From assembly GCF_947503125.1 (NCBI RefSeq), contig NZ_CANNCR010000042.1:1-38995 (forward strand): a stretch of DNA of 38,995 bases, in the 5' to 3' direction. The notes beneath the pieces are model-generated. The model did not search any database, had not been told where the DNA came from, and saw nothing but the letters and a program-made list of their open reading frames with translations. Source of the DNA: an uncultured Metabacillus sp. (lineage in GTDB: Bacteria; Bacillota; Bacilli; Bacillales; Bacillaceae). The position numbers and the translations under genes are program-made. Below, one piece after another: positions 20,769 through 38,333 of the stretch (position 1 is its first letter; each line of letters begins with the position of its first letter).

Positions 20769-23792
<3,024 letters not shown>

Positions 23793-23887: not shown

Positions 23888-24044
23888 GATGCTACGTGAA
23901 TAGCGATGATTGAACCACGAATTCGGGGAATTGAACCACAAAAGGCAGGTAATGAACCACGGATTACGAAAATTGAACCATCAATTGAGGAAATTGAATC
24001 ACAGCCCGCGTGATGCCAAGTGAATAGTGGTGATTGAACCACGA
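23888..24044. repeat. TGAACCAC 21-bp phased array, locus A
   Basis: Boxes TGAACCAC or one-base variants start at 23911, 23932, 23953, 23974 and 23995, exactly 21 bp apart, and again at 24035. A 33-base segment around the first box (23888-23920: GATGC, TGAATAG, TGATTGAACCACGA) recurs at 24012-24044 with six differences. The 23793-24104 gap holds this array between two terminators and no gene. The same array type is larger at 36.05-36.49 kb. Confidence 0.85.
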
Positions 24045-24668: not shown

Positions 24669-25454
24669 ATGACTACAATTGTATTGGACCCTGGGCACGG
24701 TGGAACCGACTCCGGTGCCGTGAATCAGTCCTTTTTTGAAAAAACATTCAACTTAGATATAGCTTTAATGATACGTAACTATTTACGGAAACATTATGAT
24801 GTCAATGTTATCATGACAAGATCAACGGATACGGAACTCAGTTTGTTTACTCGAACAAATCTAGCTAATCAAGTGAACGCCGACTATTTCTGCTCCATTC
24901 ATATTAATGCAGGCGGAGGAACAGGTTGGGAGAGTTATATTTATAATGGTTCCGTGTCTGAGCAAACCGTTAGAGCTCAAGAGACGATTCACAACTATGT
25001 CATGAGCCAAATTCGCCCCTACGGTGTTCGAGATCGCGGTATGAAACGAGCAAATTTTCACGTTCTTCGTGAAACTAATATGCCTTCTATATTGTTGGAA
25101 AATCTATTTATCGATACCAATTTTGACTTAAATCTTTTGCGAAACAAGACGTTTCTAGAAAAGTTGGGGAACGCCATTGGTGAAGGACTCGCTAGAGCGT
25201 TAGCACTATCGAGAATAAATGTGGATTTGTATGTCGTGATAGCTGGAAGTTTTGTATCACTTGACAACGCCCAACAACGCAGAAATTTCTTAAGATCAAA
25301 TGGAATAGAAGCTATTGTCGTTACAACAGAAATTGATGGTGTTACTAAATATAGAGTTCAATCCGGAGCCTTTCGTAACCGAGATCTGGCTGAAGTCAGA
25401 CTTGACGTTGTTCAAAACCTTGGAATTGAAGATGCTTTTATCATTACAAAATAG
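24669..25454 (+). CDS. N-acetylmuramoyl-L-alanine amidase with SPOR domain (CwlC-like)
   Basis: A 261-residue Amidase_3 enzyme that cuts the lactyl-amide bond between muramic acid and the stem peptide. Zinc ligands are His10 (LDPGHGG), Glu24 (FFEKTFNLD) and His78 (CSIHINAG). The catalytic Glu is Glu144 (SILLENLF). The C-terminal ~75 residues (LYVVIAGSFVSLDNAQ to the end) form a SPOR peptidoglycan-binding domain with two half-repeats. It has no signal peptide. This architecture and the text GGGTGWESYIYNGSVS match B. subtilis CwlC, a mother-cell lysis enzyme made late in sporulation. AAAGGAGG lies about seven bases upstream of the ATG. Confidence 0.9.
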   Translation: MTTIVLDPGHGGTDSGAVNQSFFEKTFNLDIALMIRNYLRKHYDVNVIMTRSTDTELSLFTRTNLANQVNADYFCSIHINAGGGTGWESYIYNGSVSEQTVRAQETIHNYVMSQIRPYGVRDRGMKRANFHVLRETNMPSILLENLFIDTNFDLNLLRNKTFLEKLGNAIGEGLARALALSRINVDLYVVIAGSFVSLDNAQQRRNFLRSNGIEAIVVTTEIDGVTKYRVQSGAFRNRDLAEVRLDVVQNLGIEDAFIITK

Positions 25455-32059: not shown

Positions 32060-33646
32060 CTAATAATTCCTCCACGCCTTCTCATATTTCTCAATGATCG
32101 TCGGACGTGTTAGTGTATTTATTTCAATTGAAACGGTGTTGCCTTTTTCGTCTGTTATTTCTTGGTCAATATCCTTGCCAAATGTGGTCAGCCCTTTAAG
32201 TCCTTCTACGGTAAGGAATTTGGTTTCAACTTCAATGGCTGCTTCATCGAGGTTGACTGCTTCTCTTTTTGCTAAAATAAAGCCCCAGTCGCCGAAGCTT
32301 GGAACATCAACGTGCAGGTTGGCGGTCTGCAGGTTAGCTGCTTGGACCGTTTGGTTAATCGACCAGTATACCTCAGTTGCAAAGGTCGGGCTTGTTGCTT
32401 GGATCATTATTGAGCCGCCTGGTGTTAAATGGTTCCTTAGCAGCTGATAGAATTCCAGGGTGTACAGCTTGCTTAGTGATTCATTATTCGGGTCAGGCAG
32501 ATCGACGAGAATCACATCATAAAACCCCTGATCATGTTGAAGAAATTGAAAGGCATCCTCATTTATGACATGTACTCGTTCATCCTCGAAGGCGTGTTCA
32601 TTGAGGGATGCGATGTCCCGGTTGGTTTTTCCGAGCTCCACAACCTTTGGATCAAGATCAACAAGTGTCATAGAATCGACTTCTTCATATTTTTGCAATT
32701 CCCTTAAGGCTAAGCCGTCGCCGCCTCCGAGAATGAGAATCTTTTCCTTCGATTCCGCTGTGGCCATCGCCGGGTGGACGAGTGTTTCATGGTAGCGGTA
32801 TTCATCGCTTGAACTAAACTGCAGCTGGCCATCGAGGAACAAACGCAAATCGCCTTGCTCCTTGGTTAAAATAAGTTGCTGGTACTCGCTGCGTTCTGTA
32901 TAAATAATGGGATCACGGTATAGTTTTTGTTCAAAGGAAAACGCGGTTTCTTCTCCAAACAGCACGCCAGCTGTCAGCAAGATGAAAATAGCGATTCCGG
33001 CAGAGAAATGGCGTTTGAACCCTTTGATTTCGCTTTTGAAATATAGCAGAATCCAAATTGCTACGCCAACATTGATCATCGCGACGAAAAACGCTGTTTT
33101 CACAAGGCCGAATTCAGGTCTGAGCAAGTAGACGAAAAGGAGACCGCCAATTAAGCCGCCGGCATAGTCGGAAAACAGTACTTTAGCCGTGCTTTTCTTT
33201 ACGGTAACACCAATCTCATTTGCTTTTCTGATTAAGATGGGCAGCTCCACTCCTGTTAACGCCCCAACAATTAACGTAATCGCATAGAGAAAGAAGGCAT
33301 CCATACCGGAGCTTAGGAAGGCTGAAACACCAAAGAGCAAAAAGGTCGAAAAGCCGGCGATGATGCCGATCAGATATTCAATCCACACAAATGAGAGAAT
33401 CAATTTCTTCGTCACTTTTTCACTGATTGATGCACCGATGCCCATTCCGGTAAGGAAAAGAGAAATGGTGAGAGTGTATTGCTTGACACCGTCACCAAGC
33501 AGGTAGGAGCCCGCCGCTCCGAATAATACCTCAAAGATAATGCCGCATACAGAAACGATTCCTGATGCCCAGTAAATCGCTTTGCTTCTTTTTATAGAAT
33601 CTTCGATCACGAAATGGTCGTCTCCATTCTTATGTAATGGATGCAC
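32060..33646 (-). CDS. Membrane-anchored spermidine synthase-like protein
   Basis: A 528-residue fusion of about seven N-terminal membrane helices (residues ~25-220) to a C-terminal aminopropyltransferase domain (~240-500). The domain keeps LDGQLQFSSSDEYRYHE, the SAM-type loop ILGGGDGLALREL, LVDLDPKVVELGK and VDLPDPNNESLSKLYT, which resemble polyamine synthase active-site blocks. It may transfer an aminopropyl group or make a related modification at the membrane. The frame starts at a GTG overlapping the DUF350 gene by 17 bases. A GTG at 33610 is an alternative. It is the last gene of the sigma-W-type psp operon. Confidence 0.85.
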   Translation of the reverse strand: MHPLHKNGDDHFVIEDSIKRSKAIYWASGIVSVCGIIFEVLFGAAGSYLLGDGVKQYTLTISLFLTGMGIGASISEKVTKKLILSFVWIEYLIGIIAGFSTFLLFGVSAFLSSGMDAFFLYAITLIVGALTGVELPILIRKANEIGVTVKKSTAKVLFSDYAGGLIGGLLFVYLLRPEFGLVKTAFFVAMINVGVAIWILLYFKSEIKGFKRHFSAGIAIFILLTAGVLFGEETAFSFEQKLYRDPIIYTERSEYQQLILTKEQGDLRLFLDGQLQFSSSDEYRYHETLVHPAMATAESKEKILILGGGDGLALRELQKYEEVDSMTLVDLDPKVVELGKTNRDIASLNEHAFEDERVHVINEDAFQFLQHDQGFYDVILVDLPDPNNESLSKLYTLEFYQLLRNHLTPGGSIMIQATSPTFATEVYWSINQTVQAANLQTANLHVDVPSFGDWGFILAKREAVNLDEAAIEVETKFLTVEGLKGLTTFGKDIDQEITDEKGNTVSIEINTLTRPTIIEKYEKAWRNY

Positions 33647-34025
33647 CGATCACGAATGCAAGGCCGATCGATACACACATACTGATAATTCCGACAGAAA
33701 TGTTTCCTTTTTTCAGCTGATCCTCAACAGAGAATTTCCTTGAAAACAGCTCAAATAGCAAGTAGGCAATCATTTGCAGAAGGATACCGAAAGCTCCCCA
33801 AATGATTGTGTCCATCACACTTGCACTATGATAGATCGAGAATGCGAGAATAATACAGATCCCAACGATTTTGCCGCCAATTGAAAGCGAAACCGCATGA
33901 TTTCCGTTTAACACTTCATCCCAGTCTTTATATTTTCTCGTTAACAGTTCAAAAATGGTTAATCCGACAATTACGATCGCAATCGCGATAATAAAGTAAA
34001 CCGCCGTTAAAATAAATGGCTCCAT
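33630..34025 (-). CDS. DUF350 membrane protein
   Basis: A 131-residue protein with four predicted membrane helices arranged as two repeats (VYFIIAIAIVIVGLTIFELLTRKY and MIAYLLFELFSRKFS). This matches the DUF350 (YjfL) family, whose molecular role is unknown. In many bacteria DUF350 genes sit beside PspA and spermidine-synthase-like genes, as here. It follows the DUF4247 gene by 19 bp and overlaps the synthase-like gene. Confidence 0.85.
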   Translation of the reverse strand: MEPFILTAVYFIIAIAIVIVGLTIFELLTRKYKDWDEVLNGNHAVSLSIGGKIVGICIILAFSIYHSASVMDTIIWGAFGILLQMIAYLLFELFSRKFSVEDQLKKGNISVGIISMCVSIGLAFVIGASIT

Positions 34026-34044
34026 CTCGTTCCATCCCTTCTAT

Positions 34045-34653
34045 TTATTTTCCAGTTCCTGGTCCGCCGCCGCGAACAGAGGAGGTTCCGCCTCTGACAG
34101 ACGAATTCCCGCCGGATTTATACCAGCCGCCAGACGATTGATAGCCTCCATAACAGTCGTCATTATTTTGGTAGCACTTGGATTGCTGTTTTTTTCGCCA
34201 ATCGTCAACATCCAGCACATTATCTAATAGCCAAAAGGCAAATAATCCATTAAAGAAACTAGGGTTGTAGTTGTTTCGAACAAAGTTGTATGTAGAAATT
34301 TCAACTAATGTATGTTCCGGGTTGTCTTGGTTCTTCGTTAAAATAACAAATGAATCCTGGTAGATGAGAACTTGCTTATCATCCTTTTTTTCGCTGACCT
34401 CACGAGGCTTCTCATACTCCTGCAATTCAGCGGCAACCTCATCGATCGATTTGTTTTCTGCCAGGTAAATCTCAGAAATTTCATTAGCCCCTTGCTGACT
34501 TGATACGACATCTTGCAGGACATAATTTGTTTCAATAAATTCTGCAATGCCATCTTTAAAAAGTGATCCGCCGGTAGGCCCTTGAGTTCCGCCTCCACAT
34601 GCTGTGAGGAAGAGAACAAAACATAGCATAATTAAAAGAAGCGACTTTTTCAT
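34045..34653 (-). CDS. DUF4247 lipoprotein
   Basis: A 202-residue exported protein with lipobox LTAC (Cys19). The body (FIETNYVLQDVV, YQDSFVILTKN, STYNFVRNNYNPSFFNGLFAFWLLDNVLD) resembles the DUF4247 family of Bacillales. The C-terminal ~35 residues are a Gly/Ser-rich tail with two GGTSSVRGG-type repeats and a Cys pair before it (KCYQNNDDCYGG). It would be anchored on the outer face of the membrane. It lies between pspA and DUF350, as part of the envelope-stress operon. Function unknown. Confidence 0.8.
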   Translation of the reverse strand: MKKSLLLIMLCFVLFLTACGGGTQGPTGGSLFKDGIAEFIETNYVLQDVVSSQQGANEISEIYLAENKSIDEVAAELQEYEKPREVSEKKDDKQVLIYQDSFVILTKNQDNPEHTLVEISTYNFVRNNYNPSFFNGLFAFWLLDNVLDVDDWRKKQQSKCYQNNDDCYGGYQSSGGWYKSGGNSSVRGGTSSVRGGGPGTGK

Positions 34654-34680
34654 GTGCTCACCTACTTTCCCTTACAATCC

Positions 34681-34714
34681 GCGGGGTGACTCACTGATCC
34701 CTGAGTCACCCGCC
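34681..34714 (-). promoter_or_regulatory. Intra-operon stem-loop after pspA
   Basis: GGGTGACTCA pairs perfectly with TGAGTCACCC, extended by further G-C pairs, with an eight-base loop. On the minus strand no U-run follows, so it is more likely a 3' stabiliser or processing site that favours pspA mRNA over the downstream genes. Confidence 0.65.
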
Positions 34715-34723
34715 GATGTTTTC

Positions 34724-35392
34724 CTATTCCTTTCCCAGCTTGCGTTTTAATGCTGCCAGCTCGTCATCCACATCATTTTTCTCCATTTCCGCAAATTCAT
34801 CATCCAAGCTTCTGTTTGCTGAACGCATATCCTCGCTTGTTTCTGCCTCTGCTTCATATTGAAGGACCTTTTCCTCCATACGCTCAAAGCCGCGTCTTGA
34901 TTCATCGCTGCCGATTCCTGACAGCGTCCGGTTGATCTTTGTTGTTGTTTTCGCTGTTTCCGCACGCGCTTTTAAGGAGTCCTTCTTCAATTTCATTTCA
35001 TAATATTCAGCTTTCATTTCATCCAATTTCTTGCGTAAAGAGTCTGAATCCAGCTTAGCCCGTTCATAGGATTCTTTAAGGGTATCAGCGGTTTGCTTGT
35101 GGATTTTCTTGTCTTCTAACGCACGCTTTGCAAGGTCATCATTTCCAGCTTCAACCGCTATAATCGCTTGTTCATCACGCTTTTCGACCATTTTCTGGGC
35201 ATCCTCATATTTCTTTTGCAGCATTTTTTCATTGGCAATTTGCTTGGCAACTGCTGACTCTGCATCGCGAATATCTGCTTCCATATCTCTCATAAATTGC
35301 TCAAGCATTTTCACTGGATCCTCGGCCTTATCCAATAAAGCATTTAATTCAGCGTCTACAACTGTTTTCACTCGTTTAAATAATCGAAACAT
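34724..35392 (-). CDS. pspA: PspA/IM30 family membrane-stress protein
   Basis: A 222-residue, highly charged, almost wholly helical protein. It begins MFRLFKRVKTVVDAELNALLDKAEDPVKMLEQFMRDME-like (short amphipathic membrane helix, then the family-typical DPxKMLEQ). A long coiled coil fills residues ~25-155 and an acidic C-terminal helix follows. PspA proteins assemble into ESCRT-III-like polymers that protect leaky membranes. Length matches B. subtilis PspA/LiaH (225-227). AGGAGG lies eight bases before the ATG. It is the second gene of the sigma-W-type operon, 12 bp after DUF4178. Confidence 0.92.
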   Translation of the reverse strand: MFRLFKRVKTVVDAELNALLDKAEDPVKMLEQFMRDMEADIRDAESAVAKQIANEKMLQKKYEDAQKMVEKRDEQAIIAVEAGNDDLAKRALEDKKIHKQTADTLKESYERAKLDSDSLRKKLDEMKAEYYEMKLKKDSLKARAETAKTTTKINRTLSGIGSDESRRGFERMEEKVLQYEAEAETSEDMRSANRSLDDEFAEMEKNDVDDELAALKRKLGKE

Positions 35393-35404
35393 TTGTTTTT
35401 CCTC

Positions 35405-35914
35405 CTAATTACTTGCTATAATTTTGATTTCATATTCTTCAATCGCATATCCAGCACTTGCTTCAATCTCACTGCCCCATTTTTCGACAGAAAGAAATTT
35501 TTCTTCCTCATCATCACAATAGTCATAGTACTCGCAAATCATGCCATTAACATTTTGGTTTCTGCCGATGCTTGTTACCCGGGCAGAACCTGATTCATCT
35601 AAGTGGTACGTTGTTCCATCGAATTTGATCATGTTAGGAATGGGCTCCTGCAGCTTCATTTTTACTTTTTCATAAATGCCAAGATAAAGCTCATCATCCA
35701 TCTCAACGCTGAGCCAGATTGTTTTCGACACTCCCTCAAGCTGATACGCATGCCATTTGAACCCGTGGTCATCATAGCTGATTTTCCCGACAAGCTTATA
35801 ATCCTCTAAATCATATGTAATGATGTCATTTACCTGTAAATTGAACATATTGCGTTCTTCCACGGGCTTGGCGGTGTTGCTTTTTTGGCCAAATAGTCTC
35901 TTTAAAAAGCTCAT
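35405..35914 (-). CDS. DUF4178 family protein
   Basis: A 169-residue cytoplasmic beta-rich protein. Segments NLQVNDIITYDLEDYKLVGKISYDDHGFKWHAYQLEG and FLSVEKWGSEIEASAGYAIEEYEIKII match the DUF4178 family, usually found next to PspA, DUF350 and spermidine-synthase-like genes. A basic N-terminal tail (SFLKRLFGQK) may touch the membrane. It is the first gene of the operon, with AGAGGTG upstream of its ATG and the sigma-W-type promoter about 45 bp further up. Function unknown. Confidence 0.85.
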   Translation of the reverse strand: MSFLKRLFGQKSNTAKPVEERNMFNLQVNDIITYDLEDYKLVGKISYDDHGFKWHAYQLEGVSKTIWLSVEMDDELYLGIYEKVKMKLQEPIPNMIKFDGTTYHLDESGSARVTSIGRNQNVNGMICEYYDYCDDEEEKFLSVEKWGSEIEASAGYAIEEYEIKIIASN

Positions 35915-35956: not shown

Positions 35957-35982
35957 TACGATTTAAAAAAGAAGAAGTTTCA
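35957..35982 (-). promoter_or_regulatory. Sigma-W-type ECF promoter
   Basis: On the minus strand TGAAAC, exactly 16 bases, then CGTA, identical to the B. subtilis sigma-W consensus. It lies 43 bp upstream of the DUF4178 start and should drive the whole psp operon in response to envelope stress. Confidence 0.85.
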
Positions 35983-36042
35983 GAAATTTCCATAGCCTTT
36001 GTAGTTTATACCCGAATGAGCAGGAAGCATTCGTATTTTGAG

Positions 36043-36485
36043 TAAACCACTTAAAGAAAAATGCCTGGGGTGAAGCAGGAAACTGAGATTGAACCACTAA
36101 TTGAGATAATTGAACCACCAATCTTAAGAAATGACCCGCATCTTGAGATAAATGAACCACGCTCGGAATAATTGAACCACTCAAAGAAAAATGCCGGGAA
36201 AATGAAAAGAGATTCCCCTGAATGAACCACCAATTTAGATAATTGAACCACACAGCAGAGTGATTGAACTGCGGCCAACATAAAAACGCCACAAAATGAA
36301 TTAATAAGATCCCGATTGAACCACAAAAACTAGTAATTAAATCACCTATCCAAATAAATGAACCACCGATCACAGGAATTGAACCACATCTTGAGATATA
36401 TGAGCCACACATCCAAATAATTGAACCACTAATAGATAAACGCAGAAGGCCCCCGATTGAACATCTAAGCTCAGTAAAGAACCAC
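36043..36485. repeat. TGAACCAC 21-bp phased array, locus B
   Basis: Boxes of the type TGAACCAC (some with one to three changes) start at 36043, 36090, 36111, 36132, 36153, 36173, 36223, 36244, 36265, 36317, 36338, 36359, 36380, 36401, 36422, 36458 and 36478. Most steps are exactly 21 bp. The larger steps (47, 50, 52, 36) hold a related spacer with AAAAA(T/C)GCC or AAACGC, then often ATGAA and a CCC-rich piece before the next box. The array fills the divergent gap between the psp operon and the amine oxidase gene (35915-36707). A 174-codon minus-strand frame across it is not credible as a gene. Confidence 0.9.
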
Positions 36486-36685
36486 ACTATAAAATAACAT
36501 ATACTGAATCTATGTCACATTTCTTACCAAACTCAAACCAAATTTCTCTATTCAAATTAAAAAGATACTAATTTTCTTTAAAAAATCCTCCTATTTCTAA
36601 CATTTAAAAACAGCTTTTTAAAAAACTACGTAACCTTATCTGACAAATTTATACAACTCTACCAAATAATCTATTAAATTAATGT

Positions 36686-36707: not shown

Positions 36708-38333
36708 ATGACAAAGAATCAGGAAAAAGGGATGACGAGAAGGGATTTTTTAGATCAGGTTGGGAAAGTTGGCGGAGCAGTTGCTGTTTGGGGGGCGATG
36801 GAATCGCTCGGATTGTTAGGGAAGCCGCTGATGGCGAGTGCGAAGGAGTTTCAAAGTCCTAAGCAAAGTGATTTAGCCATGGCGAACAAGAATGGTAAAA
36901 AAATCATTATCTTGGGAGCGGGGATTGCTGGCATGGCGGCTGCTTATGAATTACGAAAGGCGGGGTATGATTGCAAGATTCTTGAGGCGAGGGATCGCAG
37001 CGGCGGCCGAAATTGGACTGTGAGAAGGGGGACGGTAGAAACCGAAATAAATGGGGCAAAGCAAGTTTCCAATTTTGATAAAGGCCAGTACATGAATGCG
37101 GGGCCAGCTCGTATTCCGCAGCATCATGTAACGATTGATTATTGTCGGGAGCTCGGTGTTGAGCTTGAGGTTTTCTGTAATACAAATGAATTCTCCTATT
37201 TTTATCAAGAAAATGCTGGTCCTTTATCAAATCAGAAAGTGAGAAAGGGTGTTGTAAAAGCTGACACTCGCGGTTATATATCTGAACTATTAGCAAAGGC
37301 TGTTGATCAATCAGCATTGGATTATCAGCTCTCAAAGGATGATCTTGCAAGATTAACCTCCTATCTGAAAGCAGAAGGGGATTTATCGACAGATCTTACA
37401 TATAAAGGGACAAGCCGCCGCGGCTATAAGGAATTGCCTGGCGGAGGAGATAAGCCTGGTATATTGGAAACACCATTTGCTTTTGCCGATCTTCTTCAAT
37501 CGGGGATGATGAACAGCATAAGCGGTGATTACAGTTTTCAGCAGCAGCCGATGATGTTTCAGCCCGTAGGCGGGATGGATCAAATTCCAAAAGCGCTTGA
37601 AAGCAAGCTTCCCGGTGTCATAACCTTTGGTGCTGAAGTAAAGGAGATTAGACAAACAGCTGAGGGGGTTCGGATTGTTTACAAAACAAAAAACGGCAAA
37701 ACAACTGAACTGAAAGGGGACTATTGCATTTGCACCATCCCGCTGCCTGTTTTGAAAAATATCCCAGCTGATTTTACAGCGGAAATGAAGCAGGCGATTA
37801 AAAGTATCAATTATGCAACAACTGGAAAAATCGGTCTACAGTTTAAGAGCAGATTCTGGGAGAAAGAGGATCGAATTCTTGGCGGGATTACGACAACGAA
37901 TATGGACATTTCACAAATTTGGTATCCATCCAATGACTTTTTGTCAAGAAAAGGAGTGTTGGTTGGCTATTATAACTTTGGTCAAAATGCTGTTGAGTAT
38001 GGAAATCTGTCACTTTCGCAAAGACAAGCTCGTGCTTTATCTCAAGGTGGTAAGATCCATCCCGAATATGCGAAGGAATTTGAAACGTCCTTCTCTGTTG
38101 CCTGGCATAAAATAAAATATAACGAAGGAGGCTGGGCTGAATACTCTGCATCTGATCGTAAAACATATTATCCAATTTTAAATAAACCACAAGGGAGAAT
38201 TCATCTTGCAGGGGAACATCTCAGTTATTTAACAGGATGGATGGCAGGTGCGTTTGAATCTGCCAGAATTGCCGTCACGAGAATTCATGAGGACGTACTA
38301 AAAGAAAGAAAAATAACCTCTAAGGCAGGGTAA
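36708..38333 (+). CDS. Tat-exported flavin amine oxidase / L-amino-acid oxidase
   Basis: A 541-residue FAD enzyme. The twin-arginine signal (MTRRDFLDQVGK, then a hydrophobic stretch to PLMASA) predicts export as a folded, flavin-loaded protein. The dinucleotide motif IIILGAGIAGMAAAYELRKAG and ILEARDRSGGRNWT follow at about residues 66-105. The C-terminal flavin motif is GRIHLAGEHLSYLTGWMAGAFESA. It would oxidise amines or L-amino acids outside the cytoplasmic membrane to imines with release of H2O2. The exported RidA-like gene 37 bp downstream supports an imine product. The ATG follows the hairpin-enclosed ribosome site. Confidence 0.9.
   Translation: MTKNQEKGMTRRDFLDQVGKVGGAVAVWGAMESLGLLGKPLMASAKEFQSPKQSDLAMANKNGKKIIILGAGIAGMAAAYELRKAGYDCKILEARDRSGGRNWTVRRGTVETEINGAKQVSNFDKGQYMNAGPARIPQHHVTIDYCRELGVELEVFCNTNEFSYFYQENAGPLSNQKVRKGVVKADTRGYISELLAKAVDQSALDYQLSKDDLARLTSYLKAEGDLSTDLTYKGTSRRGYKELPGGGDKPGILETPFAFADLLQSGMMNSISGDYSFQQQPMMFQPVGGMDQIPKALESKLPGVITFGAEVKEIRQTAEGVRIVYKTKNGKTTELKGDYCICTIPLPVLKNIPADFTAEMKQAIKSINYATTGKIGLQFKSRFWEKEDRILGGITTTNMDISQIWYPSNDFLSRKGVLVGYYNFGQNAVEYGNLSLSQRQARALSQGGKIHPEYAKEFETSFSVAWHKIKYNEGGWAEYSASDRKTYYPILNKPQGRIHLAGEHLSYLTGWMAGAFESARIAVTRIHEDVLKERKITSKAG

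Follow-up and report, generated by a model that had tools for sequence, protein, structure and literature searches.

Dispersed arrays of a short constrained box at 21-bp steps in Metabacillus and in another family of Bacillales: candidate sites for a DNA-binding protein

The window, a stretch of 38,995 nucleotides, is contig C42 of the genome under study (G000, a soil bacterium, uncultured Metabacillus sp., with a 5.44-Mb draft in 244 contigs). An array of TGAACCAC boxes occupies positions 36043-36485 of the window, between two divergent genes. On the left is the gene for a DUF4178 protein (35405..35914; PF13785, E 5e-33), which lies on the minus strand and is transcribed away from the array, and on the right is the gene for a flavin-containing amine oxidase (36708..38333, plus strand; PF01593, E 7e-57). 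A minus-strand cluster of DUF350, DUF4247, PspA and DUF4178 genes lies beside the array (33630-35914), and 15 further genomes of the genus have loci in which its PspA-DUF4178 part aligns. In G011 the neighbours have been kept and the array is short and decayed; no array was seen within 1.5 kb in the 14 others that have the DUF4178 gene, several of which have different neighbours there. A 174-amino-acid GTG ORF runs over the array on the minus strand (35963..36487). Its translation, by eye, reads the box in all three frames, no Pfam match was found for it, and we judge it to be spurious; the statement of the sequence-only reading that codon constraint is not the cause of the periodicity is borne out. 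A second array, absent from that reading, lies on the plus strand at 23910..24042, with boxes at 23910, 23931, 23952, 23973 and 23994 in 21-bp steps and then one at 24034. It is situated between the genes for a LacZ-type beta-galactosidase upstream (20790..23792, plus strand; PF02836 and others) and an Amidase_3 protein with a SPOR domain downstream (24669..25454, plus strand; PF01520, E 3e-45), and it is matched at 23907-23960 (E 6.7e-9) by the array model R1 described below.

In the window array the exact box is found ten times, starting at 36090, 36111, 36153, 36173, 36223, 36244, 36317, 36359, 36380 and 36422. Allowing one mismatch gives 13 boxes and allowing two gives 18, so that the earlier figure of about seventeen holds if degenerate boxes are counted, but not as an exact count. 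Four of the degenerate boxes are TGACCCGC (36132), TGAACTGC (36265), TAAATCAC (36338) and TGAGCCAC (36401), and the extended box of this array is ATTGAACCAC. Once degenerate boxes are included, the 21-bp runs proposed for 36090-36153, 36223-36265 and 36317-36422 also hold. The steps between called boxes are 21, 42, 20, 50, 21, 21, 52, 21, 21, 21, 21 and 21, which include the breaks of 20, 50 and 52 bp noted earlier. On the plus strand of the window nine pairs of boxes (at most one mismatch per box) are spaced at 21 bp; no such pair arose in any of 100 dinucleotide shuffles. The 13 boxes of the segment 36043-36485 compare with a mean of 0.62 and a maximum of five in 500 shuffles. The phased TGAACCAC array is therefore a real feature.

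The array divides into three blocks on the plus strand. Block 1 (36043..36180) has boxes at about 36042 (degenerate), 36089, 36110, 36131 (degenerate), 36152 and 36172. Block 2 (36181..36303) begins with the spacer AAAGAAAAATGCCGGG, continues with boxes at about 36222, 36243 and 36264 (degenerate) and ends in a AAAAACGCC piece. Block 3 (36304..36485) has boxes at about 36316, 36337 (degenerate), 36358, 36379, 36400 (degenerate) and 36421, and its last two, both degenerate, are at about 36457 and 36477. Related pieces between the box groups, also part of the sequence-only reading, are present: in a BLAST self-alignment, 36088-36194 aligns with 36336-36443 at 77% and 36045-36118 with 36175-36251 at 76%. 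This level of block-to-block likeness suggests that the higher-order organisation arose by duplication of blocks that have since diverged.

The arrays are dispersed. A genome-wide count in the same genome confirms the excess of 21-bp spacing, with 13 exact double TGAACCAC boxes at 21 bp and none for a reversed control pattern; with a free spacing of 3-33 N the count is 17 pairs, of which 13 are exactly 21 bp apart, compared with one in the control. The arrays of this genome lie at about 11 places. Three of these are within 130 bp of a contig end (the end of C18, C30:91 and C85:126, which are loci L194, L199 and L201), and a further array, at C27:54100, sits 1.3 kb from one; arrays in this genome may neighbour repeats or break at them. 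An identical TTGAGCCATCAGTGCGGAGATTTGAGCCAC occurs in this genome at C41:39895, C52:28920, C119:4132 and C128:29; it probably belongs to a multi-copy element that has nothing to do with the arrays.

Among 60 relatives, exact boxes with a spacing of 3-33 N were found in seven, the match in the own genome included, and all seven are of this genus. With one mismatch allowed, seven of 21 genomes of the genus match, with 84 matches and one in the control. We also built a sequence-only model of three boxes, R1, from 52 segments. At E 0.01 or better R1 matches 14 of the 21 genomes of the genus, eight of them clearly, including the own genome (29 matches in G000, 43 in G013, 35 in G009, 16 in G005, 17 in G020, 13 in G011, seven in G019 and six in G014), and six weakly, with one or two weak matches each; seven have none. 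The R1 array places used here are those among the matches listed, the weak-match loci L254-L259 were left out of the analysis, and L224 (G003) was not accepted as an array. At E 1e-4 R1 matches eight of 80 genomes of the family, the sole one outside the genus with a single borderline match. At E 1e-5 it matches six of 397 genomes of the order, including the own genome. Two of these, G309 and G350, belong to another family and are rich in arrays, with the box ATTNRACCACT; G162, G177 and G321 have one match each, and a test for box clusters found no cluster in them. A second model, R2, has 58 matches in G350 and 61 in G309, which by our own count correspond to 28 and 33 array places, and at a threshold of 0.001 it has no match in ten other genomes of their genus. 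As the arrays are missing from seven of 21 genomes of the first genus and from ten of 12 of the second, they are not essential.

The 21-bp unit consists of a repeat of about 9-13 bp and a spacer of 8-12 bp, with occasional one-base slips, and a repeat length of 20-21 nt is kept across loci as the sequence varies. In 26 stretches of G350 there are 29 arrays of at least three boxes, and the number of boxes is six in 19 of them, five in seven, four in two and nine in one. The Metabacillus arrays are more ragged and have higher-order blocks of about 113-130 bp. Gaps of more than 24 bp between boxes (n = 38, with near-duplicates removed) cluster at 38-43, 50-51, 60-62 and 69-72 bp. The 12 gaps that are not near 42 or 63 bp share a common phase (p 0.0004 against uniform gaps, an optimistic value as some gaps may share ancestry). 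If a turn is 10.5 bp, these gaps are too short for whole turns by a quarter of a turn; they fit whole turns only at about 10.0-10.2 bp per turn. The proposal that the boxes face the same side of the helix thus gains from the shared phase of the irregular gaps, but is weakened by their offset at 10.5 bp per turn.

The box itself is specific to the lineage. Of 120 array boxes that end in ACCAC in six Metabacillus genomes, 107 have G as the third base and none has C (G in 35/35 in G000, 13/16 in G009, 33/40 in G013, 19/20 in G020, 6/8 in G011 and 1/1 in G014). In G005 and G019 the third base of such boxes is C in 47 of 47, a count that leaves out the TTGAGCCAC-type boxes, one per block, of the G005 array L225; in G350 it is T or C in 82 of 86. 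The model that found the arrays of G005 and G019 was built on G, which means that the search itself did not produce the switch. The boxes are genus-specific and carry a short characteristic signal, and TTGAACCAC and TTCAACCAC form a natural pair with switched boxes that could be used as a control of specificity. GTGGTTCAA resembles the T-arm of tRNA; we dropped this reading because other lineages use GGTTGAA, GGTTAAA and GGTCGAA.

The boxes are constrained. Across 12 arrays with orthologous positions in the two genomes G350 and G309, 16 of 502 box core sites are substituted, compared with 71 of 588 in the spacers and 679 of 6435 in the flanks. A box was called in these alignments if either row or both matched the consensus, and alignment programs favour boxes that match. 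The core differs from the spacers (p 3e-8) and from the flanks (p 3e-9), and the spacers do not differ from the flanks (p 0.26) and look neutral. A single position that alternates between C and A accounts for 13 of the 16 core changes, the other seven positions having three changes in 441 sites, and the two free positions of the box have changed in 18 of 126. The counts per position yield ATTnnACnACTnT, and the number of boxes is equal in seven of the 12 pairs. In 12 Metabacillus pairs (11 between G009 and G013 and one between G000 and G011) the boxes are also less changed than the spacers (139/723 and 550/1921, p 6e-7); in one pair, L233/L215, the boxes differ more than the spacers. Here both boxes and spacers exceed the flanks (455/3907) because slippage of units spoils the alignment. 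Since slippage inflates these counts, the case for selection rests on G350 and G309.

These features place the window array in a class that has been described. Subirana and Messeguer (2021; PMC8161180) found 781 tandem repeats, 20-21 nt in length, in 176 Bacillus genomes; these are species-specific and in general non-coding and have a short characteristic sequence, and repeats of this constant size are catalogued there in many bacteria, without a function. The authors note that the length corresponds to two helical turns, and propose either a protein that forms polymers along DNA and stabilises the nucleoid or a role as small RNAs (PMC8161180). The arrays here are alike in their 21-nt step, mostly non-coding position, dispersal, species specificity and short signal (PMC8161180), and they are not part of coding genes, as the short ORFs that overlap them are judged to be spurious; as the window array has the features tested, we file it with these repeats. 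The sequence-only reading knew of no description, which does not hold for the class, although the box itself was not seen there (PMC8161180), and no obvious description of TTGAACCAC or GTGGTTCAA was found in the literature among the matches listed. One example rich in 21-nt repeats is B. weihaiensis, Metabacillus harenarius in the NCBI taxonomy, with the signal TCGCGG (PMC8161180), which differs from TGAACCAC. The 52-nt tandem repeats of Bacillus are similar in their constant length near whole turns, species-specific signals and dispersal, and differ in unit length and in having several signals per unit, often with the reverse in the same repeat (PMC8161180). New here are the family of TGAACCAC boxes, a test for selection, a unit of six boxes, sites that are free of arrays and hints of an origin-proximal polarity. 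In the main text of PMC8161180 we saw no test of selection on box versus spacer, six-box unit or test of gap phase, and the terms orientation, replication origin and terminator are absent from it.

The arrays may be compared with two other kinds of repeat. The order of constant repeats and variable spacers is that of CRISPR arrays, which have a constant repeat of 23 nt or more, variable spacers of near-equal length and cas genes. The repeat here is about 9-13 bp with spacers of 8-12 bp, no cas genes were found among the window proteins scanned, and the CRISPR combination of a longer repeat, near-equal spacers and cas genes was not found. Plasmid iterons and centromere-like arrays are helix-phased direct repeats that are cooperatively bound and found at one locus beside the gene for the binding protein, whereas each genome here has arrays at about 11 to 33 places; a scan of nine window proteins found no binding-protein gene of this type.

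We suggest that the arrays are directly repeated sites for a trans-acting, cooperative DNA-binding protein that may serve as a nucleoid anchor or as a boundary or roadblock, a reading we hold with confidence barely above even. The putative protein would read a box of about ATTnRACCACT, with one site per two helical turns. Binding would probably be cooperative along units of about six boxes (115-125 bp), on one face of the helix, and several such units per genome would act between genes as local nucleoprotein structures, either anchoring the nucleoid or setting a boundary or roadblock between transcription units. The arrays are real, dispersed, box-constrained and regularly phased, and of the explanations for them a cooperative binding array is, by a slight balance of probability, the most likely. 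The earlier proposal of a binding array for a protein is the best-supported reading: the box constraint, the shared phase of the gaps, the lineage-specific third base, the six-box units and spacers no more alike between loci than shuffled columns (below) all point to it. On the other side are the patchy presence, the phase offset, Metabacillus pairs that exceed their flanks and, at the window array, divergent flanking genes and the absence of a called terminator.

The genes flanking 39 arrays of G350 and G309 are convergent in 16 cases, codirectional in 17, divergent in five and of unknown arrangement in one. Compared with other gaps of at least 100 bp, array-bearing gaps in G350 are enriched for convergence (10/26 and 16/106, p 0.012). 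Of 27 G350 arrays, 14 have an antisense terminator-like hairpin no more than 90 nt away on the 3' side, for which the expectation from shuffling is 0.25, and 12 have a sense hairpin on the 5' side; two and seven arrays have the remaining two combinations. These convergent gaps and hairpins in G350 speak for a binding array, while the Metabacillus arrays speak against it: they show no convergent enrichment (9/44 and 24/124, p 1.0), and their hairpins are rarer, with an antisense hairpin on the 3' side in 2/11 arrays of the own genome and 3/11, 0/6 and 6/18 in others, and a sense hairpin on the 5' side in 1/46 overall. The Metabacillus sets for hairpins and orientation leave out some loci, for example L229, L249, L253 and L224, and include the orthologs L214/L202, L215/L233, L239/L206, L251/L200 and L248/L241. 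A nearly identical hairpin of about CCCGGCGCAGACCGGG follows the G350 arrays L343, L353, L354, L359, L362 and L363 and is a repeated terminator-like element that adjoins arrays. A promoter reading gained no support, with three promoter-like sites compared with 3.4 in shuffles.

A second explanation, that the arrays are a selfish satellite whose units are multiplied through slippage and unequal recombination and reach other loci without benefiting the host, is in our view unlikely. Several features are those of such a satellite: block duplication is evident in the higher-order periods of 113-130 bp, the single short, decayed array of G011 corresponds to three blocks at the window locus, and the distribution over genomes is patchy. 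At one site, between two proteins that we take to be gerQ and ywdK, the gap is 292-293 bp long in G350 and G309 and contains a six-box array, and eight of ten congeners have a gap of 39-92 bp with, by eye, a terminator-like hairpin; in the other two the gap is 348 and 760 bp, and R2 found no array in those genomes. Against this, the boxes are constrained relative to spacers and flanks, which is unexpected for a neutral satellite, a BLAST search of plasmid and phage collections with the array gave no match at E 0.01, and spacers compared between loci have a mean identity no higher than that of shuffled columns (0.47 and 0.47 in G350, 0.35 and 0.36 in G000, and 0.38 and 0.40 in G009). Spacers within an array are more alike (0.49 in G350, 0.45 in G000 and 0.51 in G009). 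Near-identical pairs of spacers from different loci (at least 0.83) are in small excess over shuffled columns (3.4% and 1.7% in G350, 0.32% and 0.10% in G000, 0.39% and 0.20% in G009), so some copying between loci is possible. The whole-unit likeness between loci of mobile repeats (MITE, REP or IS-derived) was not found. The suggestion in the sequence-only reading of a self-propagating repeat is therefore not supported in the sense of recent wholesale copy-and-paste; local duplication of blocks is real. A separate stretch of about 180 bp is common to the G009 and G013 array loci L202, L210, L235, L237 and L240 at 73-90%, and is perhaps a second dispersed repeat.

The arrays could alternatively act as RNA, with the motif transcribed and read as a small RNA, a sponge or a Rho-loading site that ends antisense transcription; we regard this as quite unlikely. 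A Rho utilisation site is a transcribed, C-rich, unstructured stretch at which Rho ends transcription. The box strand of the window has more C than G from about 36100 onward and folds like shuffled sequence (z -0.83); outside the own genome, 30 of the 35 arrays in the Metabacillus sets have an antisense gene on the 3' side, a few of these loci being orthologous to one another. The 52-nt repeats of B. coagulans are reported as transcribed in the main text of PMC8161180. The minus strand folds slightly better than shuffles (z -1.69, 5/100), a further point against a binding array. However, the unremarkable folding of the plus strand also counts against an RNA element, a scan of the window at Rfam gathering thresholds gave no match, near-exact 21-bp steps would be unnecessary for RNA, and the orientation preference fails in the own genome, where the 3' gene is antisense in two of the eight arrays for which it is known.

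A polar element on the scale of the chromosome, with centromere-like sites or sites that guide a translocase laid out by distance from the origin and by direction, seems to us distinctly improbable. In G009, nine of 12 arrays are within 0.89 Mb of dnaA (maximum 2.88) and ten of 12 read toward it, and in G014 all four are within 0.63 Mb and read toward it; pooled, the two genomes give a KS p of 0.0003 for distance and a p of 0.004 for polarity. Arrays on the same contig also tend to be strand-coherent in G350 (22/25, p 0.004) and less so in G309 (19/23, p 0.08). This pattern comes, however, from two related genomes, G009 and G014, which may not be independent, and from matches at E 1e-4 or better, which leaves out the weak matches at 3223840 in G009 and 5181200 in G014. 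Gene orientation tracks replication and may explain the polarity, and many species have no arrays. The origin-proximal lean and polarity are thus hints, a lead and not a result. A fuller version, in which six-box filaments near the origin would guide or organise the chromosome in some Bacillales with a co-evolving reader, we consider rather improbable; if true, putative short nucleoprotein filaments would cluster around the origin and point toward it.

That the 21-bp period is a coding relic, a protein repeat of seven codons, is extremely unlikely: the 174-amino-acid ORF spans the window array, ORFs of at least 60 amino acids overlap 18 of 34 arrays in one set and ORFs of at least 80 amino acids seven of 39 in the G350/G309 set, and one minus frame reads the box as W-F/L-N, but steps of 19, 20, 22, 50 and 52 shift the frame, other arrays have stop codons (by eye), the window ORF, the one overlapping ORF scanned, has no Pfam match, G350/G309 substitutions by unit position modulo 3 (29/45/35) lack a third-position excess, and no single open frame with synonymous bias was found. 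The short overlapping ORFs are judged to be spurious because of the frame shifts and the substitution pattern, and the arrays are probably not coding. As to whether the arrays are always intergenic, they do lie between longer ORFs, but such short ORFs overlap many of them.

The binding-array reading that we prefer can be approached through this family, which offers a defined box, a constraint on the box and not on the spacer, a unit that often has six boxes, and sites where some species have an array and others lack one. These features of the TGAACCAC family make the question of what reads the arrays directly testable.

Similar repeats were also encountered elsewhere. A scan of viral contigs gave four matches, all regular repeats inside a predicted ORF, which we judged to be unrelated. 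A pattern scan of contigs gave at least 113 stretches, and most of those inspected are single matches or regular repeats in unrelated taxa. A Rossellomorea aquimaris record (L093) has 21-bp units that carry CGAACCACTTCTC. L110, from an uncultured Bacteroidetes, and L124 are long 21-bp arrays with TTGAACAACTC and TTGAAGCACTTTATT units, and are possibly other families of this kind.
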